Shown here piece by piece: positions 8,684 through 41,073 of a stretch of DNA of 64,000 nt. How positions within the stretch are numbered: position 1 is the first letter of the stretch; each line of letters opens with the position of its first letter. This DNA comes from a virus, in the IMG/VR virus record IMGVR_UViG_3300034117_002447, positions 124,001-188,000 of that record. One strand, 5' to 3'. The position numbers were made by a program, and so were the translations under genes. The notes beneath the pieces are model-generated. The model saw only the letters and a list, made by a program, of their open reading frames with translations, searched no databases and was not told the origin of the DNA.

Positions 8684-9115
8684 ATGCAGAATTATATTAC
8701 CGATTTCAATGGATTTGCGCTAACTGAGTCGGCTCAGAATTACACCGATCAGATGGAACTCCATAGGCTGGGGATTCCCATTCCTGGGTTTCGTGTGCTG
8801 ATAGTCCGGGTAGACTGGGAAAAGATTGGTCGAAAGGATTTTTCCGGTAATCTAGAAACCTTTATGAAGTGTTGGTTCATGGAGGCCTATCCGGCTCCCA
8901 ATGCTGACGGTGAGGACTCTTGGTACGAGTATCCACCGGCTGAACTTATTCGCATGGTCAAGGCCGACGAGCCTGGAGATGTTGAGTTTGTTGACGGGTT
9001 TATCATGAATCTAGCTAAAGAACACGATGTAGATCTTATTTGGGAATTGGGAGACAAGACCTGGCGGGAAGTACCCAGCGGGCGATCTGTACCCCGACTG
9101 GATCTCTTAAGATAA
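8684..9115 (+). CDS. Hypothetical protein with capsid-targeting-like N-terminus, 143 aa
   Basis: Starts MQNYITDFNGFALTES. The ALTE|S site fits the (L)-x-E cleavage pattern shared by the packaged-protein family of this window. The remainder is acidic and alpha/beta with no recognised domain. A TATAAATA late motif directly precedes it. Being a virion-internal protein is inferred from these two features together. Confidence 0.65.
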   Translation: MQNYITDFNGFALTESAQNYTDQMELHRLGIPIPGFRVLIVRVDWEKIGRKDFSGNLETFMKCWFMEAYPAPNADGEDSWYEYPPAELIRMVKADEPGDVEFVDGFIMNLAKEHDVDLIWELGDKTWREVPSGRSVPRLDLLR

Positions 9116-9117
9116 CC

Positions 9118-9210
9118 TTAACCTCTACGTTCTATCCTCTTCAATCCGGAGTAGACTATAATAGCTAGGAACCACAGGGTAACCCCCAGCCACACATATA
9201 CCGTTTTCAT
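9118..9210 (-). CDS. Small single-TM protein, 30 aa
   Basis: Reads MKTVYVWLGVTLWFLAIIV then a basic tail (KRIERRG): one transmembrane helix with a positive C-terminus. It ends 2 nt past the convergent gene at 9115. Too short for certainty; a lysis or membrane accessory role is only possible. Confidence 0.4.
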   Translation of the reverse strand: MKTVYVWLGVTLWFLAIIVYSGLKRIERRG

Positions 9211-9231
9211 GAAGTTATCTATATACCCCAA

Positions 9232-9260
9232 AAAGGGATCCCTTCTGAGGATCCCCTTTC
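9232..9260. terminator. Bidirectional terminator
   Basis: Stem AAAGGGATCC / GGATCCCCTTT with T-rich flanks, between the 30-aa gene and the 9284-9664 gene. Confidence 0.7.
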
Positions 9261-9283
9261 TTTGTTTTGGGCTAAGTGTTGTG

Positions 9284-9664
9284 TTATGCAGTTACCTTAC
9301 GGCCACGTACAGTATTGTATAGGGCATTCATAACTCGCATGTCTGACTTACGGCCAGTTACGACAGCGCTTACCAATTTAGAGTCTACCCCTAATTTCGT
9401 AGCTACCATTGAGTTATCTCCACGACGTTTGCGAGCAGAGATTACCTCTAACTTTTGAGCTGGAGTTAACTTTGCGTAACTCATACCTTTACGGCCAGCA
9501 TTACGACCCGTTGAAACGGTAGCTGTTACGGTTACCGCTGAAACAGTAGACCCAGTAGATTTTTTAGACTTCGCAGTTTTTGCGGTCTTTGTTGTTGAAG
9601 GAGTTGCGGCCTTTACCGCTGGTGCAGATACCTTGGTAGCTGCGGTTGCTTTTGATTTTCTCAT
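9284..9664 (-). CDS. Histone-tail-like basic protein with HTH domain, 126 aa
   Basis: Residues 1-55 are a Lys/Ala/Thr/Ser/Val tail (for example KTAKTAKSKKSTGSTVS) like histone H1 or HU-type tails. Residues 60-126 form a helical domain (LTPAQKLEVISARKRRGD, then ATKLGVDSKLVSAVVTGRK) with a helix-turn-helix look. It probably binds DNA, either as a nucleoid-like protein or a regulator. The start at 9664 (MRKSKAT) is preferred to the one 9 nt upstream. It stands alone, followed by a terminator, and faces a GC-rich divergent region. Confidence 0.75.
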   Translation of the reverse strand: MRKSKATAATKVSAPAVKAATPSTTKTAKTAKSKKSTGSTVSAVTVTATVSTGRNAGRKGMSYAKLTPAQKLEVISARKRRGDNSMVATKLGVDSKLVSAVVTGRKSDMRVMNALYNTVRGRKVTA

Positions 9665-9699
9665 GTTAAACAAATTATTTTTGATTTAAGGTTAAGGTA

Positions 9700-9899
9700 C
9701 CAAAGAATCCCGGCAATTGGTCGCCCGGCCTGAAAAAGATTGGGCGTGCCTGCACCGCCGCAAAAACCCCCTAGGCGGGGCCGCGACGTGGAGACCTCTG
9801 TGAAGCTGCGGAAGACCCGTGACTATTATGTACCGGTGAGACGGTCGCCTAATCAGTCGGAAAGCTGTTCAGGTAATAAAAAAATGGGAACCTGCTCAA
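9700..9899. other. GC-rich, structured gene-free block
   Basis: About 200 nt of unusually GC-rich DNA without an ORF between divergent transcripts. It contains CCCC-CTAGGC-GGGG hairpin sequence. On the minus strand this is followed by GTTTTT, which looks like a terminator. CCGCCGC/GCGGC and CCCGGC-type segments could form further stems. It could be a structured RNA or operator region. RNase P and 4.5S signature sequences are not found. Confidence 0.35.
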
Positions 9900-9908
9900 G
9901 ATAAATAA
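9900..9908 (+). promoter_or_regulatory. Late promoter motif
   Basis: GATAAATAA, 21 nt before the ATG at 9930. A TTTTAGTATACT element lies between. Confidence 0.55.
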
Positions 9909-9929
9909 CTTAAAATATTTTAGTATACT

Positions 9930-11183
9930 ATGAACTTAATTAAAGGCTATAGCCAATGGTTAAACGAAAACCTAAACGCTATAAACGAAAACTGGTCAAT
10001 CGATTCAGTTACTCTCAGTACTGATGACTTTAGCATTGACGAGGCAAAATACGATCAGTACATCGCAAGTCAAGCTGGAGCACAATTTAGACTATTCACG
10101 CAAGAGGTTGCAAAGTCTAACATCCAAAACATTAAAAAGAAAGAGGCTCATCAAGAAATTTTGGGAAGCCTTGCTAAACACGGCCAAACGGCTAAAAAAG
10201 GTTTCTTGGGAATCTTTGGCGGTAAGAGCCTAGACGAAGTAGTTACCGCTACTCTTGATAGTTTGATTGCAGGTCAATCAAAAATTGCCTACAGCAAAAC
10301 AACGGTGGACTACAATCCTGGAGCTGACGGTACAGGTAGAATCATGACTCAGGGTCGAATTGGGATTAATTCACTGGAAATTGATACTGATCCACGTTGG
10401 AGTAAAGCAACCTCTAGTACAGGTATGTTGTTGGGATTTGTTAACGCATATAACCAAAATGCATTTGAAATGGGTCAAGGTCAATTCATCTTGAGCCAAA
10501 GAATGGGAGAAGACGGTTACCTAGATATTACAACTACTCCAGTAGTAGACGCTGACAATCTATATTTGTACACTCAACAATTACTTGGCGACCTTGCTGC
10601 AGGTAAGGATCTTAAAGTAGACGTTGCTCAAACTGGAGGTTCCGATGCAGTTACTGGCAAATTCGCTGCAGAATTCGCAGCTGGTTCTGACCAAGTTACT
10701 CCAGCTATTCAAGCTGAGGTTGCAAAAGCAGTAGAGTTATGTTTAGCTAAATTCCCAGCAGGATCACGCCCTGATAAATTTACTTTAACTTCTGGTGCAA
10801 GTACTGAATGGAACGGTAAACAAATGCCTAAGGCTGACGGAACTGGTGCAGTAACTCCAAAGGATGATGCAACTAAAAATCAAGATCTTGCTTACCGTCG
10901 TGGTGTTGCTTTCATGAATGCTCTTAACTCTGGACTTAAAGCAAAAGGACATCCAGGTTTTGATGCATACGAAGTTGCATGGTCAATCGGTGCAAGTGGT
11001 CAACCTGCAAATGCAGCTGACCGTTTCGTTGACCTAAACATTGAAAAAAATGCAGTTAAGCCTAAAGCTGTAGAAACTACTAAGACTACTGCTGTTTCAA
11101 CTGGAAATGCAACTACTAACGTTAGAGGAAAAGCTCAATTCTTTGAATTGAAACTTACTTTAACTGCAGCAGCCGCTAAATAA
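9930..11183 (+). CDS. Capsid-targeted OmpA-like domain protein, 417 aa
   Basis: The N-terminus MNLIKGYSQWLNE|N matches the packaged-protein peptide of this window. Residues 20-230 are of unknown fold. Residues about 240-375 resemble an OmpA C-terminal peptidoglycan-binding domain: an initial strand FAAGSDQVTPAIQAEV, then the helix DLAYRRGVAFMNALNSGL corresponding to the family's (S)xxRAxxVxxxL helix. It shares this architecture with the 539-aa protein at 11844. I infer a late virion-internal protein that contacts the host cell wall during entry. A late motif precedes it and a terminator follows. Confidence 0.75.
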   Translation: MNLIKGYSQWLNENLNAINENWSIDSVTLSTDDFSIDEAKYDQYIASQAGAQFRLFTQEVAKSNIQNIKKKEAHQEILGSLAKHGQTAKKGFLGIFGGKSLDEVVTATLDSLIAGQSKIAYSKTTVDYNPGADGTGRIMTQGRIGINSLEIDTDPRWSKATSSTGMLLGFVNAYNQNAFEMGQGQFILSQRMGEDGYLDITTTPVVDADNLYLYTQQLLGDLAAGKDLKVDVAQTGGSDAVTGKFAAEFAAGSDQVTPAIQAEVAKAVELCLAKFPAGSRPDKFTLTSGASTEWNGKQMPKADGTGAVTPKDDATKNQDLAYRRGVAFMNALNSGLKAKGHPGFDAYEVAWSIGASGQPANAADRFVDLNIEKNAVKPKAVETTKTTAVSTGNATTNVRGKAQFFELKLTLTAAAAK

Positions 11184-11203
11184 TAAGTTTAAACTTAATA
11201 CAC

Positions 11204-11238
11204 AAAGGGACCGATAGAAATATCAGTCCCTTTTTTAT
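11204..11238 (+). terminator. Rho-independent terminator
   Basis: Stem AAAGGGACCGATA / TATCAGTCCCTTT followed by a T-run, ending the 9930 gene. Confidence 0.8.
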
Positions 11239-11254
11239 TTGATTAGTGTTTTAC

Positions 11255-11758: not shown

Positions 11759-11784
11759 GGCTTGTTTATTACTTGGTTATATAG

Positions 11785-11794
11785 TTATTATACC
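11785..11794 (-). promoter_or_regulatory. TATAATAA promoter-like element
   Basis: Minus-strand GGTATAATAA, 26 nt before the ATG at 11758. Confidence 0.35.
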
Positions 11795-11803
11795 TAAAAA
11801 CTC

Positions 11804-11813
11804 GAATAAATAA
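11804..11813 (+). promoter_or_regulatory. Late promoter motif
   Basis: GAATAAATAACCTAGTA, 30 nt before the ATG at 11844. The CCTAGTA tail is shared with the motif at 14079. Confidence 0.5.
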
Positions 11814-11843
11814 CCTAGTACAAAATAAAAATAGACATAGTTA

Positions 11844-13463
11844 ATGAAACATTCAATTATTAAAGGCTACTCTAGCTGGTTAAACGAAAACTTGTTAATC
11901 GCAGAAGCTGAAGGAACTGATATTGGTGCTCTTTACAAAGCTGGCGATCGTGCAGGTTTAGTAAATGCAGCAATGGCAGCAGACTCTGCTGAAATAAAAG
12001 CTCACCCAGCTTACGAATCTGTAATGCAATGGTGGAAAAACGGAGAGGGCGACCTCAACTTATTCAAATCGCTTCTTAAAAAGAGTTCATCTGCTAAAAC
12101 TGACAGATTACGTTCCCTAAAATCGATATATTACTGGACAGGCGGCGGTACGGTTAAGGGTGCAGCTCCTAGAGCAGATATGTTTTATAAAGTAGCAGAT
12201 TCAATTATTGCAAACGGTGCAAAGGCTGGGGTAACTCCAGAAAAGCTAGCTCAACTTAAACAAGCGGTTGACTTATTAAAGACTGCAAAGACTGAAGGTT
12301 TCGAATTAAGAACATCAGCTCTATTCGGTTCAATTATACCAGGTGCTCTAACTGATGGAGTATTCGATACTGGCGGTAAAAAAATTGATGTGATTGCTGA
12401 ACTAGCCAAGCCTCAGGTCATGGATACTCTTAAGAAAGCACTAACTGCTTACCGATTAAATACTAATGCAAGCAAGGAATTAATGGTAGATCCTTTAACT
12501 TCTGCTAAATTCCTGATTGCACAGAGAACCAATAAAGCAACAGTCAGTCAATACTGGATAGCCTCAATGTCGTTAAGCGATACTGAAAAGAAGTCTATGC
12601 TAGATAACTTTAAAGCAAAAGCTGAAGCGTATGCTGCTCGTAAAAAGGATCCTAATGTAACTTTCGATAAAGCAATTTTAGTTGCTACGAATTTATACAT
12701 TGCACCAAAGAACGAAAAAATTACAGTTGTCGCTGGAACACCAGCTGCACCAGCTGCCCCAGTTGTTCAGGCTTTTTCATATCCTGAAAGTGCAAACGGT
12801 AACGCTAAGAGCCCAGCTTTCCAAAAGGGTTTACAGTTATTTCCAGATGATGGAGTGACTATTCAACCTACTGCTCAAGCTGAATTAGCCGCAACTGTTA
12901 AATCTGCAGTAGATGCAGTTAAAGCAGCCGGCGGTACAATTACAGCTGTTTCAACTTGGGGTTATGCAAGTACTTCACAAGTAGGAACGACTTACAAGTC
13001 AGCTGATAAAACCTCAAAGAAGGAAAATAACGTTGCGTTAGCAAACGATAGACTTGCGTCTATTAATAGCGCGCTAGCTGCCGCTCTTACTGAAAACGGA
13101 ATAACTATTGCACCAACCGTTGATGCTAAAAATTTAGCTGAACCGAATAGAGGTCCTGACTGGACTGATAAAGATAAAACTGATGCTAAGTGGGGTAAAC
13201 CTGGAGCAAGAACTCCAGAGTACCAAGCAACTTACGGACCATGGAGATATGCAGTTGCGTTCTTCCAGTTAACGTATACAATCACATCAACCGAACCTAC
13301 TCCAGTTAAGTCAACTGCAACTCCTAGTGGAGAATGGAACTCAGTAATTACATGGTCTGATGAATCATTCCAAATTGAGTTACCTAGAATTCAATTCGGA
13401 ACCGCTTTACCTAAAGTACCAATGTATAAAGGTGGAAGCTCTACTGCATGCCCGATATTTTAA
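11844..13463 (+). CDS. Capsid-targeted OmpA-like domain protein, 539 aa
   Basis: N-terminus MKHSIIKGYSSWLNE|N matches the packaged-protein peptide. Residues about 30-290 are Ala/Lys-rich and helical with no recognised domain. An Ala/Pro linker (TPAAPAAPVV) leads to an OmpA-like C-terminal domain (about 310-490: LQLFPDDGVTIQPTAQAEL and the helix NVALANDRLASINSALAAAL). A paralogue of the 9930 protein in architecture. Probably ejected with DNA, with a peptidoglycan-directed role. The ATG follows a late motif by 30 nt. Confidence 0.75.
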   Translation: MKHSIIKGYSSWLNENLLIAEAEGTDIGALYKAGDRAGLVNAAMAADSAEIKAHPAYESVMQWWKNGEGDLNLFKSLLKKSSSAKTDRLRSLKSIYYWTGGGTVKGAAPRADMFYKVADSIIANGAKAGVTPEKLAQLKQAVDLLKTAKTEGFELRTSALFGSIIPGALTDGVFDTGGKKIDVIAELAKPQVMDTLKKALTAYRLNTNASKELMVDPLTSAKFLIAQRTNKATVSQYWIASMSLSDTEKKSMLDNFKAKAEAYAARKKDPNVTFDKAILVATNLYIAPKNEKITVVAGTPAAPAAPVVQAFSYPESANGNAKSPAFQKGLQLFPDDGVTIQPTAQAELAATVKSAVDAVKAAGGTITAVSTWGYASTSQVGTTYKSADKTSKKENNVALANDRLASINSALAAALTENGITIAPTVDAKNLAEPNRGPDWTDKDKTDAKWGKPGARTPEYQATYGPWRYAVAFFQLTYTITSTEPTPVKSTATPSGEWNSVITWSDESFQIELPRIQFGTALPKVPMYKGGSSTACPIF

Positions 13464-14118: not shown

Positions 14119-15081
14119 ATGAGTAAAGTTAGAATATTATCAATAGACGGTGGTGGATTAAGAGGAATCGTTCCATTACTTATCCTTAAAGAAATTGAAA
14201 ATCAGCAAGGTAAAAAAATACACGAATTATTTGATGTCATAGTAGGTACCTCAACTGGCGGTATTATTGCATGCGGATTAACTTGTACGAAAGACGGAGT
14301 TAATCCTTATTTAACAATCGACCAGCTAATAGAACTTTACACAACTAAAGGTAATGTTATTTTCCCTTATAGTAAAAATATATTAGCTAAAGTAATTAGA
14401 GGAGTTAATTCAGTATTTAATCCTAAATTCTCTCCAAAAGGTTTAGACGGTTTATTGGAAAATTATTTTGGTGATATGATGATATCGCAATCACTAAAGC
14501 CTATCATCGTTAGTTCGTATGACCTAAAGAACAATGAAGTTATTATGTTTAAAACTAGAACTGCTAAATGGTCTAAAGAACGATTTGATGTTAGATTAAA
14601 AGATGTTTGTCGGGCTACGTCAGCCGCGCCGACCTACTTACCGTCATACGAAATGGTGTTTGATGGCAAAGACCGGATCTTAGTGGATGGTGGTGTTTAC
14701 ATTAACAATCCAGCAATGGCAGCAGTTGCTGAAGTTCTTAAAACAAGACCGGGTATTAAGATAGAAGATATTGAATGCTTATCGTTAGGCACCGGAAATC
14801 ATTCAGAATCGTTAGGTATTAAAACTGAAAGTTGGGGTATAGCTAATTGGGCACAACCTATAACAACAGTTATGATGCAAGCCTCTTCTAAATCAGTTGT
14901 TTACGAATGTCAACAAATATTAGAAAAGTATTTAAGAGTTCAATTAGAGATTGATGATGAAAAGAAAAGCGACATGTCAGATTCAAGACCGGCTACTACT
15001 CAATACATTGTTGATAAAGTAAATAAAGATATTATTAGTAATAAAAAAACAATGACTAATATTAAAAATTTCCTTAAATAA
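14119..15081 (+). CDS. Patatin-like phospholipase, 320 aa
   Basis: Patatin-family lipid acyl hydrolase with all catalytic elements: the oxyanion loop DGGGLRG (10-16), the nucleophile elbow GTSTGG (Ser45) and the aspartate of the DGG motif (Asp190). No signal peptide, so it should act on the inner face of host membranes. It starts an operon with the secreted nuclease (5-nt gap) behind a late motif, suggesting a role late in infection such as membrane damage at lysis or lipid remodelling. No nucleotide cyclase neighbours it, so a CBASS CapV role is unsupported. Confidence 0.92.
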   Translation: MSKVRILSIDGGGLRGIVPLLILKEIENQQGKKIHELFDVIVGTSTGGIIACGLTCTKDGVNPYLTIDQLIELYTTKGNVIFPYSKNILAKVIRGVNSVFNPKFSPKGLDGLLENYFGDMMISQSLKPIIVSSYDLKNNEVIMFKTRTAKWSKERFDVRLKDVCRATSAAPTYLPSYEMVFDGKDRILVDGGVYINNPAMAAVAEVLKTRPGIKIEDIECLSLGTGNHSESLGIKTESWGIANWAQPITTVMMQASSKSVVYECQQILEKYLRVQLEIDDEKKSDMSDSRPATTQYIVDKVNKDIISNKKTMTNIKNFLK

Positions 15082-17569: not shown

Positions 17570-17758
17570 TTAGTGTTGATAATCGTCTTCGTAATCTTCT
17601 TCGTCTTCTTCTGCTTCACAATGTTCTTTACAATCAGAGCAAATATCGCCCATCATAATAGGAGCACCGCAACAGTTTGAAGTCTCACCAGAGAAAGCAT
17701 CACTTGGATCCCAGCTCTCGTTTACGAATTTCGTAAAACTGTTAACTAAATTTTTCAT
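17570..17758 (-). CDS. Capsid-targeted mini zinc-finger protein, 62 aa
   Basis: N-terminus MKNLVNSFTKFVNE|S fits the packaged-protein peptide. The rest has a zinc-finger-like cluster (CCGAPIMMGDICSDC, HC) and an extremely acidic tail (EEDEEDYEDDY). It lies 20 nt downstream of the 153-aa capsid-targeted gene and likely shares its late promoter. DNA mimicry or binding to a basic partner is conceivable but not shown. Confidence 0.65.
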   Translation of the reverse strand: MKNLVNSFTKFVNESWDPSDAFSGETSNCCGAPIMMGDICSDCKEHCEAEEDEEDYEDDYQH

Positions 17759-17778: not shown

Positions 17779-18240
17779 TTAAGGTTCGTACTCTTCAGAG
17801 GTCTCATCATCTGCTAACCCTAAGGCTTCAGAATTAAAGTTGTCCCAAGCTTTAATAGAGTCTTTCATTGTCTTATTAAGTTCAACTAATTCGCTCTTTA
17901 ATGTCTCGACCTTTGTTTTATCAGCCTCTTCGACTGGACTCTTACGAATCTCATTAGGAATTTCTAAAAATTCTTCTTGTTTCTTTTTAAAGGCTTTAAT
18001 TGCATCTCTTCTAGCTGTGTCTAGTTCTTGATACTTTTCAATTTCTGATTCGGCTGTGTCGTCTTCAACCGGAGCCTCTGCTGGAATCCCGGCATCAACT
18101 GGAGTCTCAGCTGGAACTTCTGCAACCGGTTCCGCTGGAACTTCTGCTGGAGCTTCAACTGGAGCGTCTGGTGTTACCGGCGTATCAACTGCCTCTAGTT
18201 TCTCAGATTCATCAAGCCATTGTTGATATTTATGAATCAT
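17779..18240 (-). CDS. Capsid-targeted Pro/Ala/Glu-repeat coiled-coil protein, 153 aa
   Basis: N-terminus MIHKYQQWLDE|S fits the packaged-protein peptide. Residues 20-65 are an extended repeat of PVEAPAEVPAE type. Residues 70-140 form a charged helix, probably a coiled coil. No catalytic motif. Preceded by a late motif, which is back to back with that of the rightward protease gene. Confidence 0.7.
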   Translation of the reverse strand: MIHKYQQWLDESEKLEAVDTPVTPDAPVEAPAEVPAEPVAEVPAETPVDAGIPAEAPVEDDTAESEIEKYQELDTARRDAIKAFKKKQEEFLEIPNEIRKSPVEEADKTKVETLKSELVELNKTMKDSIKAWDNFNSEALGLADDETSEEYEP

Positions 18241-18291: not shown

Positions 18292-19089
18292 ATGAAACTT
18301 TTATCAACATATAGCGATTGGTTAAATGAAAATCATAATCCAAGACCCCTAAGGAAGTTAACGGAACTTGATATTAACAGAAAATTCGGACGTAATCCAC
18401 AAACTGGAGATAAGTACGAAACTGAGCTATTTCCAATGTTTAGAAGACTAAAACCTCGAATTGAGGCTCTGTCTAAAAAACCTAGCCTTGAAGAATGGTT
18501 CGCAATGATGCAGAATTCAGATAATCAATTTTACTCAATGGTTCAGGCAGATACACTTGCCCAGCCAGACGTCAGAGAATTATGGAGAGACTTAACTGGT
18601 CAACGTGCTTCAAAAATGAAGAAGTATAACTTATCTGAAAGCGCAGAGGATGCGGTTTGGAAAAGCGAAATTGATCCCGAATGGACAGTCATTGTTCTTT
18701 TCTCGGACGATGAGCTCTATGCAAAAGTTGCAAAAATATTTGATAGCTTAGGAATTGCTTTCGCTGATATGGTTTCAAAAACAATATTCGTCGATGGACA
18801 GGAAGTTGAGTCTCAGAATCTAGGAGACGACCATCTGTTGGCAATCGAAGCACATGAAATTTCGCATTCACTACTAAATCACGGAGGCTCTGACCGAGGA
18901 ATGGCAGCTTACGACGAGAGACAGGAGAGAGAAGCTGACTGGTTAGCTATCCGAATCCTAGAGAATTTAGGATACGGTGAAGCTTCTGCAATTTTAGAGA
19001 AACGATATAACGAATACTATGACGAGCAATCGTCAGAACTTGAGAACACAGACACACTTGAAGTGGCACTTCAAGATTACGTCAACTAA
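18292..19089 (+). CDS. Capsid-targeted zinc metalloprotease (ImmA/IrrE-like), 265 aa
   Basis: N-terminus MKLLSTYSDWLNE|N is nearly the same as in the two OmpA-like proteins. Residues 188-192 are HEISH, a zincin HExxH motif, and EREAD at 212-216 supplies the likely third zinc ligand in the arrangement seen in ImmA/IrrE-type peptidases. Family members cleave repressors or act on host regulators. A late-expressed, packaged protease could act on host proteins as the DNA enters, or on the head itself; neither is shown. The small membrane protein at 19097 follows 7 nt downstream. Confidence 0.8.
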   Translation: MKLLSTYSDWLNENHNPRPLRKLTELDINRKFGRNPQTGDKYETELFPMFRRLKPRIEALSKKPSLEEWFAMMQNSDNQFYSMVQADTLAQPDVRELWRDLTGQRASKMKKYNLSESAEDAVWKSEIDPEWTVIVLFSDDELYAKVAKIFDSLGIAFADMVSKTIFVDGQEVESQNLGDDHLLAIEAHEISHSLLNHGGSDRGMAAYDERQEREADWLAIRILENLGYGEASAILEKRYNEYYDEQSSELENTDTLEVALQDYVN

Positions 19090-21471: not shown

Positions 21472-23442
21472 ATGATAAATTCCTTAAGAGACATAGTTAA
21501 CGAGTCCGCTTTTAATCAAGACGGCCTGGTTGGCGAAATGGGAGTTAAACGACCAGAGAGACTTGCTCAAAGTCACATGGGTAGAGTTAGACAATCAACA
21601 ATTGACAGAAATCAACAATTAGCAAACAGGCCAGAGACCCGATCGTTTGCGGAAATTTCAGTAGATCTAGTTAGAGCCCTTAAGGGAGTTCGACGATTGG
21701 ATATTACAATGGAAAAACCTTCAAACTCCAGAGATTATTACCCTAAATTTCCACAACCTATCGTTGACTTAATGGCTGAACTTAAAAATGTTGACGCTAG
21801 CCGATTCGCTAATGAATTCGGAAGATGGAGAGACGTTTACCCAGGAGACGATAATGCAATTCACTTTCGTACTGAAGGACCTTCGGATTTTCAACGAAGC
21901 CACTTTCCAAATGGAGGTATTCCAAGCGGATTAAGAGGAGCTGGTTTGGGTTATAAAATGTACCGAACTCTATTAAAATACGCAGACTATATTTCGTCTA
22001 ATCCATCTGGTACTACTGAGAAGGATAAAGCATGGGGATCAATGTTGACTTACAAATCCAACCCAGATGGCTCTCCATCAGAAGATGATGCTCACGCAAT
22101 TATCGGCGCAGGCAACTGGATGGCAATGGATAAATCCATGTCAACCGCTGCAAAAATTGATGTGGCTAACAGATTTATTGAAAGAGTAATTGGTAGAGAT
22201 AAAACAAAGCCTGATCGTTTTGATATGGACGATGAATTACTTGCAATTTTACCCGATGAATCACTAGTTCTATTAAATAGAGATTATCTTAATTCATTAG
22301 TTACGGATAATCGATTAACACCTGAAAGAGTTCAGGCTATCTTGGCTGCACGAACTGAGGCTCAACGAAGAGAAGAAGAACAAAGAGAACGTGAAAGAGT
22401 TGAAGCAGCTGAACGTAGAACTCGTGAAGAGGCAGCAACTCGTCAAAGACTAGCTGACCGAATTACACAATACGGAGCAGATCCTGATGCTGAATGGAAC
22501 GTTGGAGACTTTATCGTAGTTAAGAGCTACTTATACGATGCATCATATTCGTCTCTACCAATTCGACGAGTTATTTTAGATAGAAATGGTTCGTATGTCG
22601 CTGCCTCAATTTCTAATGCTATACAGATTGACAATGGTAACCTTGAGCCAGGAAATGCTGGAGATACTAGAACGACTACCGATAAATCACAATGGATTAA
22701 AGTAATCCCAGAAGCAATTCCGGATCTTAGTCGTGTTAATTTATCAACAGTTGAACAAGAGTACATGAGATCATTCATTGATCCTGAGGAAATTGAAAGA
22801 CGTCGAGAAACTGAAAGACAGGCTGCTATTACTAGAAGAGAAGCTGAACGTACTCAAAATGCAGAACGAGCTACTCGACCTGGAGTATTTGCGGAAATGC
22901 CACAGAGCGGATCTGATCTTAAACGTCGAGTTGAAGCACGTGGACTCTTACCGGAACTTGACTTATTGAAAAAGATTAGAACCGGCGACTTTGCTAAGTT
23001 CATTGTACTAGGTCCTCAAGAGAGAGAAGCGTTTAGATCATCTTTTGGTATCCCAGTTTATGTAGCATTCAGTAGAGCAGGAAGATCAATTCGTCCAGTA
23101 GATTCAGTTGACGACCTATTGAACCGCACTGGTTACGATGCTAAATTAATAAACGTTGTAACTGGCCATATTATCGAAAGACCATTTGCTGGTCTTGGAC
23201 TGATGGCATACGAATTGGAAACAGTAACTGAGGAAGATAAATTAAGAGCTAGAGCAGGAGACCGTTACTATATCGCTAATCACATGAATAATTGGGGAAT
23301 CTTTGCTAGTTGCGATTACACTACCCGAAATACAGCAAATCAGCCATTTATCTACTTAAATACATTCGGTGGAGCTACTCGACCTACACCAGTTAGATTA
23401 GATCTTTTACGTAAAGTATCAGGTCAGCCTATTGAATTGTAA
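21472..23442 (+). CDS. Large capsid-targeted protein with charged coiled coil, 656 aa
   Basis: N-terminus MINSLRDIVNE|S fits the packaged-protein peptide. Residues 30-280 are alpha/beta of unknown family and contain a Gly-rich segment GLRGAGLGYKMYRTLLKYA that recalls an acetyl-CoA-binding loop of GNAT enzymes, but the match is weak. Residues about 295-325 and 430-465 are Glu/Arg-rich coiled coils (RREEEQRERERVEAAERR). The C-terminal 200 residues have no recognised domain. Convergent with the exonuclease gene, with a 14-nt overlap. Probably a late internal virion protein. Confidence 0.7.
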   Translation: MINSLRDIVNESAFNQDGLVGEMGVKRPERLAQSHMGRVRQSTIDRNQQLANRPETRSFAEISVDLVRALKGVRRLDITMEKPSNSRDYYPKFPQPIVDLMAELKNVDASRFANEFGRWRDVYPGDDNAIHFRTEGPSDFQRSHFPNGGIPSGLRGAGLGYKMYRTLLKYADYISSNPSGTTEKDKAWGSMLTYKSNPDGSPSEDDAHAIIGAGNWMAMDKSMSTAAKIDVANRFIERVIGRDKTKPDRFDMDDELLAILPDESLVLLNRDYLNSLVTDNRLTPERVQAILAARTEAQRREEEQRERERVEAAERRTREEAATRQRLADRITQYGADPDAEWNVGDFIVVKSYLYDASYSSLPIRRVILDRNGSYVAASISNAIQIDNGNLEPGNAGDTRTTTDKSQWIKVIPEAIPDLSRVNLSTVEQEYMRSFIDPEEIERRRETERQAAITRREAERTQNAERATRPGVFAEMPQSGSDLKRRVEARGLLPELDLLKKIRTGDFAKFIVLGPQEREAFRSSFGIPVYVAFSRAGRSIRPVDSVDDLLNRTGYDAKLINVVTGHIIERPFAGLGLMAYELETVTEEDKLRARAGDRYYIANHMNNWGIFASCDYTTRNTANQPFIYLNTFGGATRPTPVRLDLLRKVSGQPIEL

Positions 23443-24235: not shown

Positions 24236-24601
24236 ATGATTCATAATTTTAATCAATTCACAGAAAAAACAAATGAGGGTTTTTGGGACTGGCTTACCGG
24301 CAAGAAGGAAGAGACCTCTGCTCAGAAAAAAGAAGACGGCACACTCCTAGACGATAAGGTCGAAGCGTTCTATGCTACATTGGAGGATTTTGCAAATTCT
24401 GGAAAATCAGTAGCTGTCCAAAACGGCGGAACCTATACCTATTCTAAATTAGTAGAAGACATTCAAGCAGCGCTAGAGTTCTTAGGTTACGAATTACCTG
24501 AACACGGAGTTGATGGTTATTTTGGACCAGAAACAGCAATAGCTATTCAGAAATTCAATGAGGATACTACAAAAATCAGCACTTCAGATAATGGAAAATA
24601 A
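24236..24601 (+). CDS. Capsid-targeted peptidoglycan-binding protein, 121 aa
   Basis: N-terminus MIHNFNQFTEKTNE|G fits the packaged-protein peptide. Residues about 70-115 are a PG_binding_1 domain (IQAALEFLGYELPEHGVDG, FGPETAIAIQKF). The gene overlaps the start of the bifunctional lysin gene by 11 nt, so the two are coupled and probably act together on the cell wall. Confidence 0.8.
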   Translation: MIHNFNQFTEKTNEGFWDWLTGKKEETSAQKKEDGTLLDDKVEAFYATLEDFANSGKSVAVQNGGTYTYSKLVEDIQAALEFLGYELPEHGVDGYFGPETAIAIQKFNEDTTKISTSDNGK

Positions 24602-25844
24602 GATATTAAATTTCAAACAGTTTTTAACTGAAGCCGCAAATGGCCGACTTGATACTACTGGATTAGAACCTATCGCTGGTGCAGGACAACCGACTAAAGG
24701 TCATAAATTAAATTCAATTGCAGCGAAAGCATACGAAGAAATGAGAGCTGCTGCCGAAGCAGACGGAATAACTTGGGGAATTACTGACTCGTACAGAGAT
24801 TACGATTCGCAAGTTGATGTCGCTGCACGTAAAGGTCTCTATAAAAATGGAGGACTTGCGGCAGTTCCTGGAACTTCCAATCACGGATGGGGAAGCGCTC
24901 TTGACTTAGACCTTAGTGCTGAAGCTCTTCAGTGGTTGAAGGACAATGCTGCAACTTATGGATTCACAAATATTCCAAGAGAGTCTTGGCATTGGGAACA
25001 CAAAGGCAGCGTTGAATTTGCAAAGACTGGTAAAGAGGGAGCCGGTCGAACTACTGACTCTGTTTTAATTGATGCAAATCTTATTAACCGACTAATCACA
25101 GCCCTTAAAGATAAAAACTTTTCACAAGCTGATCTAGATAAACACACAACTCTTACCCCAGGAAAAGGGCAGAATTTTAAATCTACCTCAAAATTCCCTG
25201 AAGAAAATATGGATGCCTTACTAAAGGCGATGGATCAAAACGGAATAACTAATGAATTTGCTAGAAAGGCAGTACTTGGAGTTATTTCAAAAGAGTCTCC
25301 TAATTTAACTAGTGAAATTTCTTATTTCGGTACCCCTATTTCAAGAATACGTGAGGTATTTCCAAGCAAATTATCCCAATACACCGATGAACAAATTGAG
25401 GGTTGGAGGACCCAAGGCCAAGAATTATTCGATAGCCTATTTTGGGAAGCAGTATACGGTGGAAAATACGGAAACGTTTCTCCAGGAGACGGAGCTAAGT
25501 ATAGAGGCCGTGGATTTAATGGAATAACGTTTAAAGGAAATTACGAAAATCTTCAAAGAATATACGACCAAATGGGAGCTAAACTTGGAAAAGTTAATAT
25601 TGTTGAGAATCCTGAAGAATTGGAAAAACCTGAAGTTGCAGCAGAATTCGCAGTAATTTATTTCATTGATTCGTTTGATCGCAAAGGAAAAGATCCAAAT
25701 GCATATACTGACTTAGACAGTGCAGTACAAGACTACGTTCAGGCAAATGCCGGATGGGGCTCTTCATTGGGATCAACTGTCGGTAGAGAAGCTATAGCGA
25801 AAGCAAGCGCCTTCGCTAAGAGCCTAGATGCAGAAGTTGCTTAA
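24591..25844 (+). CDS. Capsid-targeted bifunctional cell-wall lysin: M15 peptidase plus GH19-like domain, 417 aa
   Basis: The start at 24591 overlaps the previous gene (ATGGAAAATAA). N-terminus MENKILNFKQFLTE|A fits the packaged-protein peptide. Residues 35-140 are a VanY-like M15 peptidase: SYRDYDSQ, the zinc ligands His98 and Asp105 in TSNHGWGSALDLD, and WHWEH (His137 region). Residues about 215-410 resemble a GH19 chitinase/lysozyme (a glutamate in VISKESPN, then YRGRGFNGITFKGNYENL). It would cut both peptide and glycan of peptidoglycan. With a packaging peptide it may be a virion-borne lysin rather than, or as well as, the lysis endolysin. Confidence 0.85.
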   Translation: MENKILNFKQFLTEAANGRLDTTGLEPIAGAGQPTKGHKLNSIAAKAYEEMRAAAEADGITWGITDSYRDYDSQVDVAARKGLYKNGGLAAVPGTSNHGWGSALDLDLSAEALQWLKDNAATYGFTNIPRESWHWEHKGSVEFAKTGKEGAGRTTDSVLIDANLINRLITALKDKNFSQADLDKHTTLTPGKGQNFKSTSKFPEENMDALLKAMDQNGITNEFARKAVLGVISKESPNLTSEISYFGTPISRIREVFPSKLSQYTDEQIEGWRTQGQELFDSLFWEAVYGGKYGNVSPGDGAKYRGRGFNGITFKGNYENLQRIYDQMGAKLGKVNIVENPEELEKPEVAAEFAVIYFIDSFDRKGKDPNAYTDLDSAVQDYVQANAGWGSSLGSTVGREAIAKASAFAKSLDAEVA

Positions 25845-28939: not shown

Positions 28940-28949
28940 TATTATACTA
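28940..28949 (-). promoter_or_regulatory. TAGTATAATA promoter-like element
   Basis: Minus-strand TAGTATAATA, 5 nt before the ATG at 28934. Its TAG is also the stop of the upstream Fpg gene. Confidence 0.4.
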
Positions 28950-29753
28950 TAATTGTAGACTTGGAACCCAATGAGTGGTTCTTCCGTCTAAGGTTTCTTC
29001 CCTAACCACCAGATTGCCCAATAGATCGGTCTTTTGTGCATACACTTCAAAGTCAAAGGTAAATCCACCTGACTCACCAGTTACCTGTCGATAATTTCGG
29101 ATACTGGCGCCGCCTTGTGTATAGGAAGATCGCATGATTAATTTTCCCCAATTCCATAATCCACAAATATCTTCCTGAGTTAGGTCGCTGACCAGTCGAT
29201 ATGGGGATATTCTGCACCGGTAAAGCATTTCACATTTGATATAGTTACCGACCCCGGCAAATAGCGACTGGTCCATTAAAGCTTCAGCTACAGTTTTCTT
29301 CTGAGCCTTAGGTAACTCAACTTTTCTAACAAAATCGTACATGCTTGAGGTCTGATCGTTTAGCATATCAAGCCCCAAGCCGGCCAGTTTTTTTGCAAGA
29401 TCTGAAGTTTGCATGAACTTTAGTGTACCGAATCTGCGTTGATCAACGAAATATAACGAAGTGCCATCATCGAAGCCTATACGGAAATGGCTGTGTGGTC
29501 TCAAGTCAGTTGACCAGAACCCGCTCATTCCCAGTGTTATCCAGAGGCAGGTCTCGTCACTTAATTCAAGCCAAATGAATTTGCCTTTAACTCCACCGCC
29601 CACTACTCTGGTGGGTAAACTGGGGCTAACGACTAGGTCCGGTGCTCTCTTTAGGAAGCGGCCGCCTAATACTTCAAATTGAGTAACCGTCTTTCCTTTG
29701 GAAAATTCGGCAATTCCTTCGTACACTCTTCTACATTCAGGTCCTTCTGGCAT
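28947..29753 (-). CDS. mutM: Formamidopyrimidine/endonuclease VIII-type DNA glycosylase, 268 aa
   Basis: Fpg/Nei glycosylase-AP lyase for oxidised bases. Visible are the catalytic Pro2-Glu3 (MPEGPE), the hairpin lysine Lys58 (VKGKFI), the H2TH segment DQSLFAGVGNYIKCEML and the C-terminal loop GRTTHWVPSLQ. The usual four zinc-finger cysteines at the C-terminus are missing, so this is a zincless-finger variant. It belongs with UVDE, ligase and an MBD4-like glycosylase in a sizeable repair set. Confidence 0.92.
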   Translation of the reverse strand: MPEGPECRRVYEGIAEFSKGKTVTQFEVLGGRFLKRAPDLVVSPSLPTRVVGGGVKGKFIWLELSDETCLWITLGMSGFWSTDLRPHSHFRIGFDDGTSLYFVDQRRFGTLKFMQTSDLAKKLAGLGLDMLNDQTSSMYDFVRKVELPKAQKKTVAEALMDQSLFAGVGNYIKCEMLYRCRISPYRLVSDLTQEDICGLWNWGKLIMRSSYTQGGASIRNYRQVTGESGGFTFDFEVYAQKTDLLGNLVVREETLDGRTTHWVPSLQL

Positions 29754-29790: not shown

Positions 29791-30267
29791 ATGAAACGAT
29801 ACGTTGCACTATTTGAAAGTTTCGAAGAAAGCTTTGACGATTTTCACCAAAAAGCGGATATGAAGTCAGACCGATTCTATCACGAAACGGCTAGAGAATT
29901 AATTGAATTGGCGAATCAATACAGCTCAGCAGGCATTGATATTGACCCTTACTCTGAAAAATACGGCACTGCTACCCGATTAACAGACCTTGAGAATGAC
30001 TTAATTGTTATGATTAATGACGAAATGGGAGAGGCAATTGCTGAAGAATTCGCAGATGAAGCTGATACTCTATTGGCTCAGTATGCAGAAGGTTCTGATC
30101 TTAACGAAAAGAAGAAGACCAAGAAAATGAATGGCGATAAAGTATTCAAGAAGGACAAAGAGGTAAAGGATAATAAAATTATGCAAGCCAATCCTGTAAA
30201 ATCTAGTTTTGAGTCTCCTGGTAAAAGGTTATCGATGAGATCTAATCAAGCAGCTGCTAAACAGTAA
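29791..30267 (+). CDS. Capsid-targeted-like acidic/basic protein, 158 aa
   Basis: N-terminus MKRYVALFESFEE|S fits the packaged-protein peptide loosely (F-E-E|S). The middle is acidic and helical, and the C-terminal 60 residues are Lys-rich (EKKKTKKMNGDK). No catalytic motif. A late motif precedes it. The bipolar charge would suit a DNA-binding internal head protein, by analogy only. Confidence 0.65.
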   Translation: MKRYVALFESFEESFDDFHQKADMKSDRFYHETARELIELANQYSSAGIDIDPYSEKYGTATRLTDLENDLIVMINDEMGEAIAEEFADEADTLLAQYAEGSDLNEKKKTKKMNGDKVFKKDKEVKDNKIMQANPVKSSFESPGKRLSMRSNQAAAKQ

Positions 30268-34421: not shown

Positions 34422-35012
34422 TTAGTTATATAAAAAGTTACGAATTAATAGTTTAATATTTTTGAATATTAAAGATTTCCTAGAATTAAGAGATTTGGTA
34501 AAAGAAACTGACCAGTTTGAAGCATTATTTGCCTCAATTGACTTACTGTCAAATTTGTAACCAATCATAAAGCCTACATCAAATAACGATTCCACTAATT
34601 GTATAATTTGATTCACTAAGTCTGAGTCAGTTTTTTGCGAATCAAAGTCAGCAGCGGATGGAGCCAGTAATTTAAGTGCTGATTTTTTAAGTGTACCAAT
34701 TGACTTTAATTGATTTTGTATTTCCATATAAATGAAAGTATATGCCTCAATTACCAGTTTATCAGCAGTTCCTGGCGAATTTAATAGAGCAGCTTGGACC
34801 ATTGCTGGAGTTTTACCAACTAGCCAGGTACTAAATTTATCAATTACCTGGTATACGTTAACAATCTTATTTGCTTTATCTAACTCAGTTTTATAAGTAC
34901 TTTTAAATTCAGAAATACTCTTAAGTTGATTAGCTGTACACTCATTAATTGAACTAGTTAAAATAGCTGGACTAAGTGCTTCATTTGTAAAAGTTTTAAA
35001 GGTCTTAATCAT
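34422..35012 (-). CDS. Capsid-targeted helical protein, 196 aa
   Basis: N-terminus MIKTFKTFTNE|A fits the packaged-protein peptide and resembles T4 internal-protein N-termini. The remainder is helical (MVQAALLNSPGTADKLV) with no recognised domain. The upstream region has only a weak late-like sequence (AATAGATAAC). Confidence 0.65.
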   Translation of the reverse strand: MIKTFKTFTNEALSPAILTSSINECTANQLKSISEFKSTYKTELDKANKIVNVYQVIDKFSTWLVGKTPAMVQAALLNSPGTADKLVIEAYTFIYMEIQNQLKSIGTLKKSALKLLAPSAADFDSQKTDSDLVNQIIQLVESLFDVGFMIGYKFDSKSIEANNASNWSVSFTKSLNSRKSLIFKNIKLLIRNFLYN

Positions 35013-36587: not shown

Positions 36588-36594
36588 ATATAAA

Positions 36595-37884: not shown

Positions 37885-37890
37885 ATTGAT

Positions 37891-37900: not shown

Positions 37901-37904
37901 AACA

Positions 37905-37929: not shown

Positions 37930-37947
37930 CATAAAATTTATAAATTA

Positions 37948-38514
37948 TTAGCTAGGGTTTACAACCTCTTCGTTAGCCAAGTTATCAAGTTCGTCTTGTT
38001 TCGCCATTCCAACTTTGATAGTTTGGATAATACGATCAAGCTCTTTCATTTCCATTACTGAAGTGTTAAGAGCTACTGCGATACGAAATACACGTTGTGC
38101 TGATTCAAGGCTAGATCCTTCGAACTTGTTAAGTAGAATTGCTGCAGCTTCTAGGGCAGATGCCTGAATTTGAACTGCTCCACTCGATTCAGTGTTTTCG
38201 TCCTGTTCCTGCTCCAATCGCGCAATTGCAGAAGAGAATCCCAAGAAACAATTCATTACCATGAATGCTTCATTAGGGCCAGTGAAAGTAAATTTACCTC
38301 CATTGCATGCATTTTTGATCCATTTAAGATCAGCTAATTCTAATTTAACTGGGAAGTATCCAGTACGACGATTGATAAGCATGTCAAGTTCTGACATTTC
38401 TTGTACAGGCTCTTCGCCGCCTTCTTGTGTTGGTTCCATTTCTGGAGAAGTTTCTTCGACCATTACAGTTTCTTCAACTAATAAGTCGGTTGCTAGTTCT
38501 TGTGAGTTTTCCAT
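37948..38514 (-). CDS. Hypothetical protein, 188 aa
   Basis: Starts MENSQELATDLLVEETVMV with a very acidic N-terminal 40 residues, then a helical region ending NLANEEVVNPS. No family is recognised. Followed by a terminator. A TAGAATAATA-like element lies near 38540. Confidence 0.65.
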   Translation of the reverse strand: MENSQELATDLLVEETVMVEETSPEMEPTQEGGEEPVQEMSELDMLINRRTGYFPVKLELADLKWIKNACNGGKFTFTGPNEAFMVMNCFLGFSSAIARLEQEQDENTESSGAVQIQASALEAAAILLNKFEGSSLESAQRVFRIAVALNTSVMEMKELDRIIQTIKVGMAKQDELDNLANEEVVNPS

Positions 38515-38567
38515 TTGAATAAAGATATTGTTTAGATTATTATTCTACTAGGAAACTTGAACTAGTT

Positions 38568-39038
38568 TTAGGAAAGTCTGTCTAAAATTATAAGTTGGGC
38601 TCGCGAAACTTTTGAGTAAGCCTCTTTGATATCGATGAATCCGGCCCAGTCAATCTCTTCTGCCTGAAGTTGGCTCTTTGGAATAGTTAATGACTCCAGC
38701 TCAATCTCAGATAGATCCTCAATTCGGAAAACGAAATAGTGTAGTGCATTCTTGTACTTGCCGTCTTTATCGTAAACTTCAACTGTCTGCACGGGCAATT
38801 CTAATTTATCTGGAGAAAGATAGATTCCTGTCTCTTCGCTAAGTTCTCGTAGAGCAGCATTCATTAGGTCTTCGCCAGCTTCGACCTTGCCCTTTGGAAT
38901 TCCCATGATTGGTCTAACCCAACTTCCATTAGTTGGATGAACTAGTAAAATTTTTTGATTGTATAATATTGCTACACCGGCCGTATCGTGGCCAGCTGAT
39001 GACTCAGCTAAGAATTCAGAGAATGCTTTAATCTTCAT
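38568..39038 (-). CDS. Capsid-targeted Nudix hydrolase, 156 aa
   Basis: Complete Nudix box GX5EX7REUXEEXGU at residues 50-72 (GKVEAGEDLMNAAL then RELSEETGI). Nudix enzymes cleave nucleoside diphosphates linked to another moiety. The domain begins around residue 17 and is preceded by MKIKAFSEFLAE|S, the packaged-protein peptide. Without that peptide it would be an ordinary T4-like NudE relative. It lies 7 nt downstream of another capsid-targeted gene. This could be a packaged enzyme acting on NAD-like, cap-like or alarmone molecules at entry. Confidence 0.9.
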   Translation of the reverse strand: MKIKAFSEFLAESSAGHDTAGVAILYNQKILLVHPTNGSWVRPIMGIPKGKVEAGEDLMNAALRELSEETGIYLSPDKLELPVQTVEVYDKDGKYKNALHYFVFRIEDLSEIELESLTIPKSQLQAEEIDWAGFIDIKEAYSKVSRAQLIILDRLS

Positions 39039-39043
39039 TTAGT

Positions 39044-39053
39044 TATTATACTA
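39044..39053 (-). promoter_or_regulatory. TAGTATAATA promoter-like element
   Basis: Minus-strand TAGTATAATA, 5 nt before the Nudix ATG. It overlaps the last codons of the preceding gene. Confidence 0.35.
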
Positions 39054-40044
39054 AAGCTGCCTTTATTGCTGCGATACTCTCAGTATACGTGACCGTATCG
39101 AATCTGTATGCTGTGTAAAAACCGGACCAAAGCGTGAGACCTCTTATTCCAACTGTCCAGGCCGCAAATTTTTCAGGCCATTTTTGGGTAGTACCCATAA
39201 TCTCGTCGATTTCCCCAGCAATACCTGTTAAAAAACCGCCAGATTTACCGGACGCTGTCCACATCTTGGCAAGTTGATCAGCGGAGAATTTTGGTGAAAT
39301 TAGCATGTACAAACCGTGCATAGCTGCACTATCAGCAAATGATGTAACTGTCTCATTTAGCTTAAGATCAACTGCGTCCATGATCATCTTAATATCAGCA
39401 TCTGACTCAACTGAGCCGGCTTTCTTGTATTTTGAGGTAATTGTGGTTACTTGTGTAGGTAAATCTCCACCGGTCAGCTTAATCCAATTGTCTGCGATAT
39501 TACCGTCACCTAGTAAAAAGCTGGCATTTGCTGCTTTTTCGATTCCTGCGAAGGAGCCGCCTAATGCTTTAACCTTATTGGTTTGAGCAGTAACCCATTT
39601 AATATGATCAGGAGTCCATGCCTTTCCGAATTTTTGAATCGATATTGTGATTAATGCAGCAATAAATTCATACATTTTACCCTTTGGGTCATATTCGGCA
39701 ATCTTATTAATGTCAATAGATGAGCCGGAAACTGGAGACGACGAGGTTGCCGCTGCTAGCTTAAGACTTCCTTTTACTGGCTTTAAGTCTGTTCCGATTT
39801 GATAAGCGACGTTAATCATGTCTTTTCCGTTATCGTGTTTAACCATGAACGTATAGTTACCAGCTGCCTTCTTTGATTCAACTTCATCCATGAATTGGTT
39901 CCATTGGTTTGCATAAGGTCCTCCATTTTGACCAGATAATAGTTTAGTTAAACCGTCAGCTGTTTGCATATCAGCGGCCTCATTGACCAGTAAGTAGCCA
40001 TGAGACTTTTTCTCTAAAATAAGCGCGTAATTTGAAATATTCAT
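39046..40044 (-). CDS. Capsid-targeted-like protein, 332 aa
   Basis: Starts MNISNYALILEKKSHGYLL and reaches LVNE|AADM, matching the cleavage pattern at residue 22. The rest is helical with no recognised domain (for example FMVKHDNGKDMINVAYQIG). A late-type AAATAAATATA precedes the ATG. The gene order 41095-40069-39046-38568 forms a run of probable internal proteins. Confidence 0.65.
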   Translation of the reverse strand: MNISNYALILEKKSHGYLLVNEAADMQTADGLTKLLSGQNGGPYANQWNQFMDEVESKKAAGNYTFMVKHDNGKDMINVAYQIGTDLKPVKGSLKLAAATSSSPVSGSSIDINKIAEYDPKGKMYEFIAALITISIQKFGKAWTPDHIKWVTAQTNKVKALGGSFAGIEKAANASFLLGDGNIADNWIKLTGGDLPTQVTTITSKYKKAGSVESDADIKMIMDAVDLKLNETVTSFADSAAMHGLYMLISPKFSADQLAKMWTASGKSGGFLTGIAGEIDEIMGTTQKWPEKFAAWTVGIRGLTLWSGFYTAYRFDTVTYTESIAAIKAALV

Positions 40045-40053
40045 TTGTTGTAG

Positions 40054-40064
40054 TATATTTATTT
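40054..40064 (-). promoter_or_regulatory. Late promoter motif (variant)
   Basis: Minus-strand AAATAAATATA, 9 nt before the ATG at 40044. Confidence 0.4.
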
Positions 40065-40068
40065 TTTA

Positions 40069-41073
40069 TTAAAATGGACTAGGCCTTTGAACTTTACGGT
40101 CGACTGGCTTTTCTACTTTCTTATTAGCTGCATCGATTTGAGCTTGAGTTAAGTTCACAAAGGCTGCATCTAATTTAGCAGAAATCTCTGCATTAATTGA
40201 GTCAACTGGAGTACCGTTATTTACAAGTTTTCCAATTGCATTAGCTGTACCGCTTCCATATTTACCGTCTGCTCCGAATTTACCAAGAGCCGTTGCTGCG
40301 TCTCCGCCTAGTGTCTTGATCTTCTTCTGTAGATCTTGAACCTTTTGATTAAATCCTGGGGCTTTCTTAAGATCAACGAAGGTAGTTGAGTTCGATTGAG
40401 AGCCTTGTGGCGAGTCGACCGTTTGTGTAGAAGTAGTAGGTGAAACTGTCGTTGTATCAGTAGTCGTAGGTTTATCAGTAGCTGATTGGCCTTCGCTTTT
40501 CATGTAAGACGGATAAACTTTATCGATTTCAATAAGCTTGCCCGATTTATCCCTTGCTGGTACTGGCTGCGCCAACTTAATATCAATTAATTTTTCTTGA
40601 TGCCATACAGCTAACGGAATCTTTGAACCTGAAACGGTCGCGGTTGCGATTGGTTCAGCTTTAGTTACATCATAGAATACGTCGGCTGCAGGTTTGTCAA
40701 CTCCAGCAGATTCGCCTGTGTGTTGTCTTCTATACGTAACAAAGGCAATTTCAGCTTTAGCTACCTCTTTTCCAACTAAATTCGTCTTGTTCATAACTCC
40801 ACTGTACACAATACCAAGGGTCATGCTCGCAGGAGTTCCTTCAAATTTAGTAGTAGTCCACCAATTTTTAAAATCGCCGTTCATTACTAAACTGTCGATA
40901 ATCGACTGAATTGGTGTTGCATTGCTGATTGAATCAGCAGATCCACTCTTTAGTACAACTTTCCATCTAGCAAGTTCGCCGGCTTCTGGTGAAATCTTAG
41001 TTATGTTTGCTTTATCGACTGCTTCAGTTAACGAAGTTGCTCTAAAGCTTTCAAATGTTTTAACAAAGGTCAT
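40069..41073 (-). CDS. Capsid-targeted protein with PG-binding-like domain, 334 aa
   Basis: N-terminus MTFVKTFESFRATSLTE|A fits the packaged-protein peptide. A Thr/Ser/Pro linker (about 200-230, TTDTTTVSPTTSTQT) separates an unknown N-terminal domain from a C-terminal PG_binding_1-like domain (KVQDLQKKIKTLGG, KFGADGKYGSGTANAIGKL). It therefore repeats the theme of packaged proteins that can hold peptidoglycan. A late motif precedes it. Confidence 0.7.
   Translation of the reverse strand: MTFVKTFESFRATSLTEAVDKANITKISPEAGELARWKVVLKSGSADSISNATPIQSIIDSLVMNGDFKNWWTTTKFEGTPASMTLGIVYSGVMNKTNLVGKEVAKAEIAFVTYRRQHTGESAGVDKPAADVFYDVTKAEPIATATVSGSKIPLAVWHQEKLIDIKLAQPVPARDKSGKLIEIDKVYPSYMKSEGQSATDKPTTTDTTTVSPTTSTQTVDSPQGSQSNSTTFVDLKKAPGFNQKVQDLQKKIKTLGGDAATALGKFGADGKYGSGTANAIGKLVNNGTPVDSINAEISAKLDAAFVNLTQAQIDAANKKVEKPVDRKVQRPSPF

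Follow-up and report, generated by a model that had tools for sequence, protein, structure and literature searches.

A putative capsid-targeting and cleavage tag at the N-terminus of many unrelated proteins in a jumbo phage genome

Why should a metallopeptidase, a Nudix hydrolase and several cell-wall enzymes encoded by one virus all begin with much the same short peptide? This question is raised by a stretch of 64,000 nucleotides (hereafter, the window), corresponding to bases 124001-188000 of the 271290-base virus record IMGVR_UViG_3300034117_002447, in which an earlier note had described a family of at least 14 proteins of otherwise unrelated content. Our analysis indicates that the shared N-terminus is very probably a capsid targeting sequence of the phage T4 type, bearing a prohead-protease cut site, which has been greatly expanded in this phage and whose cargo is probably ejected at entry.

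The motif was tested over the entire record, in which 291 genes were called, 83 of them in the window; calling was performed piecewise with a home-made caller and a few starts were misplaced (e.g., 191750 in G004, a 253-kb relative). The strict tag was defined as [FYW]xx[FW][ILVTA]xE↓[ASGN] near the protein start, with the arrow marking the predicted cut, aromatic residues at P7 and P4, an aliphatic residue at P3 and glutamate at P1. Chance was estimated from 1716 internal control windows of equal size and from 300 shuffles. Genome-wide, strict tags were found at 18 of the 291 N-termini, with 0.5 expected, versus 3 of the 1716 internal control windows (Fisher p 4.4e-13). The shuffles yielded a mean of 0.2 and a maximum of 3. 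Eight of the 83 genes in the window carried the strict tag (Fisher p 2.2e-9), namely those at 9930, 11844, 17570, 17779, 18292, 24591, 34422, and 38568. At least ten more strict members were located beyond the window (genome 54488, 56750, 79678, 80268, 101769, 104813, 108703, 109552, 255194, and 259092), so that the figure of at least 14 understated the family.

A leave-one-out profile recovered 24 members versus about 1.5 expected, and the aromatic pair followed by the site with a variable spacer was observed 22 times versus 0.4-0.8 expected. The aromatic pair alone was present near 45 N-termini, with about 14 expected; therefore, half-tags also exist, such as MKH[IL]xLFEx[FW] without the glutamate site. 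About 20 proteins carry a full tag, and the set grows to about 25-40 when half-tags and two-part tags are included. The looser rule on which the family was originally based, (L/V/I/T)-x-E↓(S/N/A/G), matched 66 N-termini where about 31-38 were expected, and was rejected as a stand-alone test since roughly half of its matches are expected by chance. The specificity of the signal comes from the aromatic pair [FYW]xx[FW] right before the site.

A search of the rest of the genome for a gp21-like prohead protease identified an S77 (gp21-family) protein of 653 amino acids (genome 8613-10574, minus strand; PF03420, E 3.9e-9), with conserved His and Ser motifs (ELDHP and SSRAAG). In the same gene, the protease domain was followed by a scaffold-like region with nine YxxY/H[LIV][GA]E repeats spaced 14 residues apart. 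These repeats were kept in relatives; in the 462-kb phage record LR756500, four copies of looser form were present. Protease and scaffold would thus be produced 1:1, unlike T4 gp21 and gp22. The cut site looked for in the capsid protein and scaffold was present in both, as well as at the start of the protease (FIIE[KRH][ILV]NE↓A), where it resembles the LIE site close to the T4 gp21 N-terminus (PMC9026906). A gp23-type major capsid protein was encoded at genome 6928-8595 (minus strand; PF07068, E 3e-41). The capsid proteins of five genomes displayed [IL]NE↓[SA] around residue 53 and varied in length directly after this predicted cut site. Moreover, a neighbor in the head operon (genome 3809-4423) exhibited a conserved internal [KRT][FY]xxF[VL]NE, and a T4-type large terminase was found in the window (57565-59523, minus strand; PF03237, E 8e-19), as further context for a T4-like head.

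Among 35 orthologue pairs from four relatives, positions P7, P4, and P1 of the tag were 83, 89, and 86% identical, respectively, and P3 was 89% similar; the neighboring positions were mostly 30-60% identical. With the bodies of the same tagged proteins as a residue-matched control, aromatic residues were kept aromatic more often in the tag (0.90 versus 0.66; p 8e-6), as was glutamate (0.79 versus 0.41; p 7e-6), the difference being borderline for the P3 aliphatic residue (0.85 versus 0.72; p 0.05). In the tag of the T4 record, MKTYQEFIAE, residues 4, 7, 8, and 10 are in register with P7, P4, P3, and P1. Mutagenesis of T4 IPIII assigned residues 4 and 7 mainly to targeting and residues 8 and 10 to processing (PMC9026906), and T4 gp21 cuts after L/I-x-E. 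When applied to T4, the strict expression retrieved exactly two genes, ipII and ipIII.

The number of strict tags was 17 in G004, 8 and 5 in the fragments G005 and G007, respectively, and 16 in LR756500, which has its own consensus, MKYIKEYEEFLLE↓A. Among seven other phages, all with an S77 protease, there were two in T4, one each in KVP40 and S-PM2, and none in PTm1, PAU, RaK2, or RM378. The expansion therefore appears to be specific to this clade and the LR756500 lineage, rather than common to S77 phages generally. Within the clade, membership of the set turns over between relatives. Shine-Dalgarno motifs were missing, signal peptides ended in AQ, and the capsid protein was similar to those of Prevotella, Tenacibaculum, and Flavobacterium phages, from which the hosts of this jumbo phage lineage are probably Bacteroidota.

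The 14 N-termini quoted in the earlier note were all present in the sequence. Apart from the eight strict members, two (21472 and 24236) were backed by relatives and one (40069) was a probable member, while the remaining three were weak. Among the strict members, the 417-residue protein at 9930-11183 (plus strand; MNLIKGYSQWLNE↓N) scored 24.8, a value equaled by 0 of the 1716 internal control windows, and its body had no family match in Pfam or PHROG searches. The 539-residue protein at 11844-13463 (plus strand; MKHSIIKGYSSWLNE↓N), with a C-terminal alpha/beta domain, retained its tag in homologues at 47-52% identity; the G004 tag, MKHTIIKDYRSWLFE↓S, lay upstream of the start chosen by the caller. 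The description of these two proteins as OmpA-like could not be established, as they were without Pfam, PHROG or PDB sequence matches; for the second, the AlphaFold model had a predicted local distance difference test (pLDDT) score of 54 and its top fold match, the TssL periplasmic domain, was non-significant (E 0.14). Two adjacent genes encode a small protein of 62 amino acids (17570-17758, minus strand; MKNLVNSFTKFVNE↓S, with MKNQVKRFTQFINE↓N in its G004 homologue) and a Pro/Glu-rich protein of 153 amino acids (17779-18240, minus strand; MIHKYQQWLDE↓S, with MIYRYNQWLEE↓S in G004). The 196-residue protein at 34422-35012 (minus strand; MIKTFKTFTNE↓A) had no homologue among the four relatives.

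The metalloprotease, Nudix, and cell-wall (VanY and peptidoglycan-binding) assignments held, with family matches of varying strength. The 265-residue M78-like metallopeptidase (18292-19089, plus strand; MKLLSTYSDWLNE↓N; AHEISHSLLNH) matched phrog_87, metallo-protease (E 2.6e-4), and, below the cut-off, PF06114 (E 0.0022), with its HExxH intact. In seven homologues, W at P4, E at P1, and N at P1' were invariant while neighboring residues varied. A truncated homologue, L191, bore the other tag subtype (MKHITLFENWN), which suggests that the tag subtype is exchanged on one homologous metallopeptidase body. The Nudix hydrolase of 156 amino acids (38568-39038, minus strand; MKIKAFSEFLAE↓S) carried a PF00293 match (E 8.9e-15) that begins at residue 18, immediately past the tag; its G004 homologue, MIDTFDNFTKPKKR, retained FxxF and had lost the glutamate site. 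The VanY-type D-Ala-D-Ala carboxypeptidase (24591-25844, plus strand; 417 amino acids; MENKILNFKQFLTE↓A; PF02557, E 1.3e-12) included a C-terminal endolysin-like domain (phrog_181, residues 205-359, E 2.6e-16), and its start is the ATG at 24591, versus 24558 for the longest open reading frame.

Some members carried a spacer between the aromatic pair and the site. This was the case for the G004 homologue of the VanY-type protein (MIKGFDQFTGKINE↓A) and for both homologues of the 121-residue peptidoglycan-binding protein (24236-24601, plus strand; PF01471, E 1.2e-6), with a two-part tag, MIHNFNQFTEKTNE↓G, in the window and MLKKFDEFNETLNE↓GFWDWLTGK in G004, where FxxF and NE↓G are retained. The targeting and cutting functions therefore look separable, as in T4. 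The protein at 21472-23442 (plus strand; 656 amino acids; MINSLRDIVNE↓S) lacked the P4 aromatic residue; NES was invariant in seven aligned sequences (54-67% identity), most of the others having F at P7. Its AlphaFold model (pLDDT 67) gave no significant fold match in the PDB. The probable member at 40069-41073 (minus strand; 334 amino acids; MTFVKTFESFRATSLTE↓A) had a two-part tag, with a FESF pair and LTE↓A a few residues later. The three weak candidates, whose individual membership is unproven, were a 332-residue protein with the site and without the aromatic pair (39046-40044, minus strand; MNISNYALILEKKSHGYLLVNE↓A), a 158-residue protein with the targeting half only (29791-30267, plus strand; MKRYVALFESFEE↓S), whose LFESF pair resembles the MKH[IL]xLFEx[FW] subtype, and a 143-residue protein with a two-part pattern and a low coding score (8684-9115, plus strand; MQNYITDFNGFALTE↓S), for which the gene caller picked a shorter frame. 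No homologue of these three or of the 40069 protein was found among the four relatives.

Beyond the window, tagged proteins included a T4-type phage lysozyme (genome 108703; PF00959, E 1.1e-9), as well as a HAD-like hydrolase (genome 259092) and a nucleotidyltransferase-like protein (genome 101769), both with sub-threshold matches. Most of the other tagged proteins had no known family in family searches. In addition, a half-tagged 2H-phosphoesterase (genome 95005-95556; L006:15005-15556), starting MLKSFSQFVTG, gave sub-threshold matches to the 2'-5' RNA ligase and anti-CBASS Acb1 families, and might be a head-borne enzyme of an anti-CBASS-like kind. A PADLOC search for defence systems returned weak matches only. 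A run of genes at genome 101769-114503 (L007:1769-14503) starts with MKH[IL]xLFEx[FW] or similar, many of them without the glutamate site; these may form another tag subtype, or be cargo that is not cut.

The proposed course of events is as follows. During prohead assembly, the aromatic pair (P7 and P4) would dock the protein onto the scaffold core. The S77 protease would then cut after the glutamate of [aliphatic]-x-E↓[small], at the same time as it cuts the capsid protein and breaks down its own fused scaffold. Released proteins would remain beside the DNA inside the head until they are ejected into the next host, where the VanY/endolysin-like protein, the T4-type lysozyme, and the peptidoglycan-binding protein are presumed to act on the cell wall at entry. 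The Nudix, metallopeptidase, nucleotidyltransferase-like, HAD-like, and half-tagged 2H-phosphoesterase/Acb1-like proteins might neutralize or reprogram the host. The capsid-targeting and cleavage tag proposed in the earlier note is strongly supported by the protease, the gp23-type capsid protein, the cut sites, and the constraint on the four T4 positions; a capsid-delivered effector set acting at entry can reasonably be inferred from T4 IPI-III and Alt. Since both the tag and the scaffold repeat read aromatic, x, x, aromatic, aliphatic, x, Glu, the tag might also be a free-standing copy of that repeat, a possibility which we advance tentatively; cargo would then enter the core in the guise of scaffold and be freed when all copies are cut at once. 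Such an origin would account for the evolution in this clade of an open-ended payload of 20-40 proteins with easy turnover of members, and the resemblance to a single repeat suggests why acquisition is easy.

Several observations weigh against capsid delivery. Packaging, cutting, and ejection of the tagged proteins are inferred, and the 90-kb fragment G008 had 0 strict tags in 76 genes. Several orthologues, such as the Nudix protein of G004, retain the aromatic pair and lose the glutamate site, so not all members need be cut. It would also be reasonable for the tagged Nudix, HAD-like, and 2H enzymes to work as ordinary proteins of the cytoplasm. The N-terminus could be a localisation signal for another destination, such as a replication compartment or the membrane, its resemblance to T4 being convergent; the Nudix, HAD-like, and nucleotidyltransferase-like bodies, which could act in the infected cell, and half-tags without a glutamate site fit this explanation. 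We consider it improbable, because it leaves unexplained the glutamate and small residue, the recurrence of the element in the capsid protein, in the scaffold repeats and at the protease N-terminus, and a constraint on precisely those positions that serve targeting and processing in T4.

Targeting without delivery has a somewhat better claim, but is still rather unlikely. The tagged proteins would be parts of the assembly core or of the virion interior that shape the large head, whether they then remain in it or leave, and are not injected effectors. Some are indeed small or repetitive and encoded in the head operon (genome 6117-6808 and 3809-4423), and T4 IPIII has an assembly role too (PMC9026906). 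However, a number of the tagged bodies are enzymes, for which a structural purpose is not apparent, and the turnover of members between relatives fits accessory effectors, not an assembly core. The near-identity of some tags in protein sequence (MKLKRFTQFVNE and MRLKRFTQFVNE) could also be ascribed to a common 5' segment gained by recombination for the sake of expression, with a functionless peptide. Where two tags had a residue in common, however, its codon was also the same in 0.51 of cases, against an expectation of 0.50 given codon usage, and the flanking DNA (60 bases on each side of the tags) was unrelated (0.30 and 0.29 identity). Selection therefore acts on the peptide, without any copied DNA segment, and the similarity of the tags, as judged from these comparisons, is at the protein level only. 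We thus rejected the copied leader, whose probability we regard as negligible.

With T4 IPI-III and Alt (Mullaney and Black 1996; reviewed in PMC9026906), the present tag shares a short N-terminal propeptide with aromatic P7 and P4, aliphatic P3, glutamate at P1, and a small P1', as well as a co-encoded S77 prohead protease and the placing of one tag in front of unrelated bodies. It differs in number (about 20 full tags and more half-tags, versus two strict tags in T4), in cargo (cell-wall enzymes, a metallopeptidase and a Nudix protein), and in the tag itself, where Asn is preferred at P2 and allowed at P1', and which occurs as the subtypes FxxF[ILV]xE and MKH[IL]xLFEx[FW] and in two-part form. 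At least ten internal proteins of T-even phages defined by such a signal have been reported, with anti-restriction roles for Ip1-3 (Repoila 1994, cited in PMC12373910), which provides a precedent both for a variable set of injected proteins defined by a signal sequence and for anti-defence functions. That set belongs to Escherichia phages and is anti-restriction, whereas the present one is larger per genome, consists mostly of other or no known families, and occurs in a Bacteroidota-like phage.

Jumbo phages phiKZ and SPN3US likewise combine a Glu-specific prohead protease with many head-internal ejection proteins (PMC5694885), but their sites are A-x-E or S-x-E, their propeptides mostly exceed 100 amino acids, and they have no short common tag; the tags described here are mostly 10-17 residues long and end in aliphatic-x-E. 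The N-terminal signal of P1 DarB also loads a reporter into the head, with no consensus among Dar proteins (PMC9024508). In Tenacibaculum phage PTm1 (AP019524), the S77 protease is annotated as a prohead core scaffolding protein and protease and adjoins the major capsid protein; none of its 304 called genes had a strict tag, and its protease-scaffold was without YxxY[LIV]xE repeats.

Literature searches limited to open-access papers turned up no mention of the tag in phages of this kind. Three features appear to be new: how large the set is, and its enzymatic content, within a single lineage of jumbo phages; its link to a protease-fused repeat scaffold; and the two-part architecture. For most jumbo phage genes, the function is not known. 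Should the tag have the meaning that it has in T4, the contents of the head could be read from sequence across a whole clade of uncultivated phages, and dozens of uncharacterised proteins would qualify as candidates for roles in the early takeover of the host, in anti-defence, or in entry through the cell wall. The tag also suggests a signal for loading cargo into the heads of a phage lineage that is not enterobacterial.

Other genes were observed alongside the tagged ones. An untagged patatin-like phospholipase (window 14119-15081; PF01734, E 4.3e-25) adjoins tagged and signal-peptide genes, and an Fpg/Nei formamidopyrimidine-DNA glycosylase is encoded at window 28947-29753 (PF01149, E 5.4e-20). 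A phage-encoded transfer-messenger RNA (window 62300-62666) specifies an unusually long tag of 24 residues, GNTNFWSLVNESVNAPVTEELLAA, with GNTNFWSLVNAGVSTPVTEELLAA as its G004 counterpart. Its FWSLVNES was rejected as a capsid tag, since G004 has FWSLVNAG and the site is not conserved; we treat the likeness as chance. Finally, GroEL-, GroES-, and DnaJ-type chaperones (PF00118, PF00166, and PF00226) were found at L012:3660-5243, L012:18767-19099, and L002:10663-11568, respectively.

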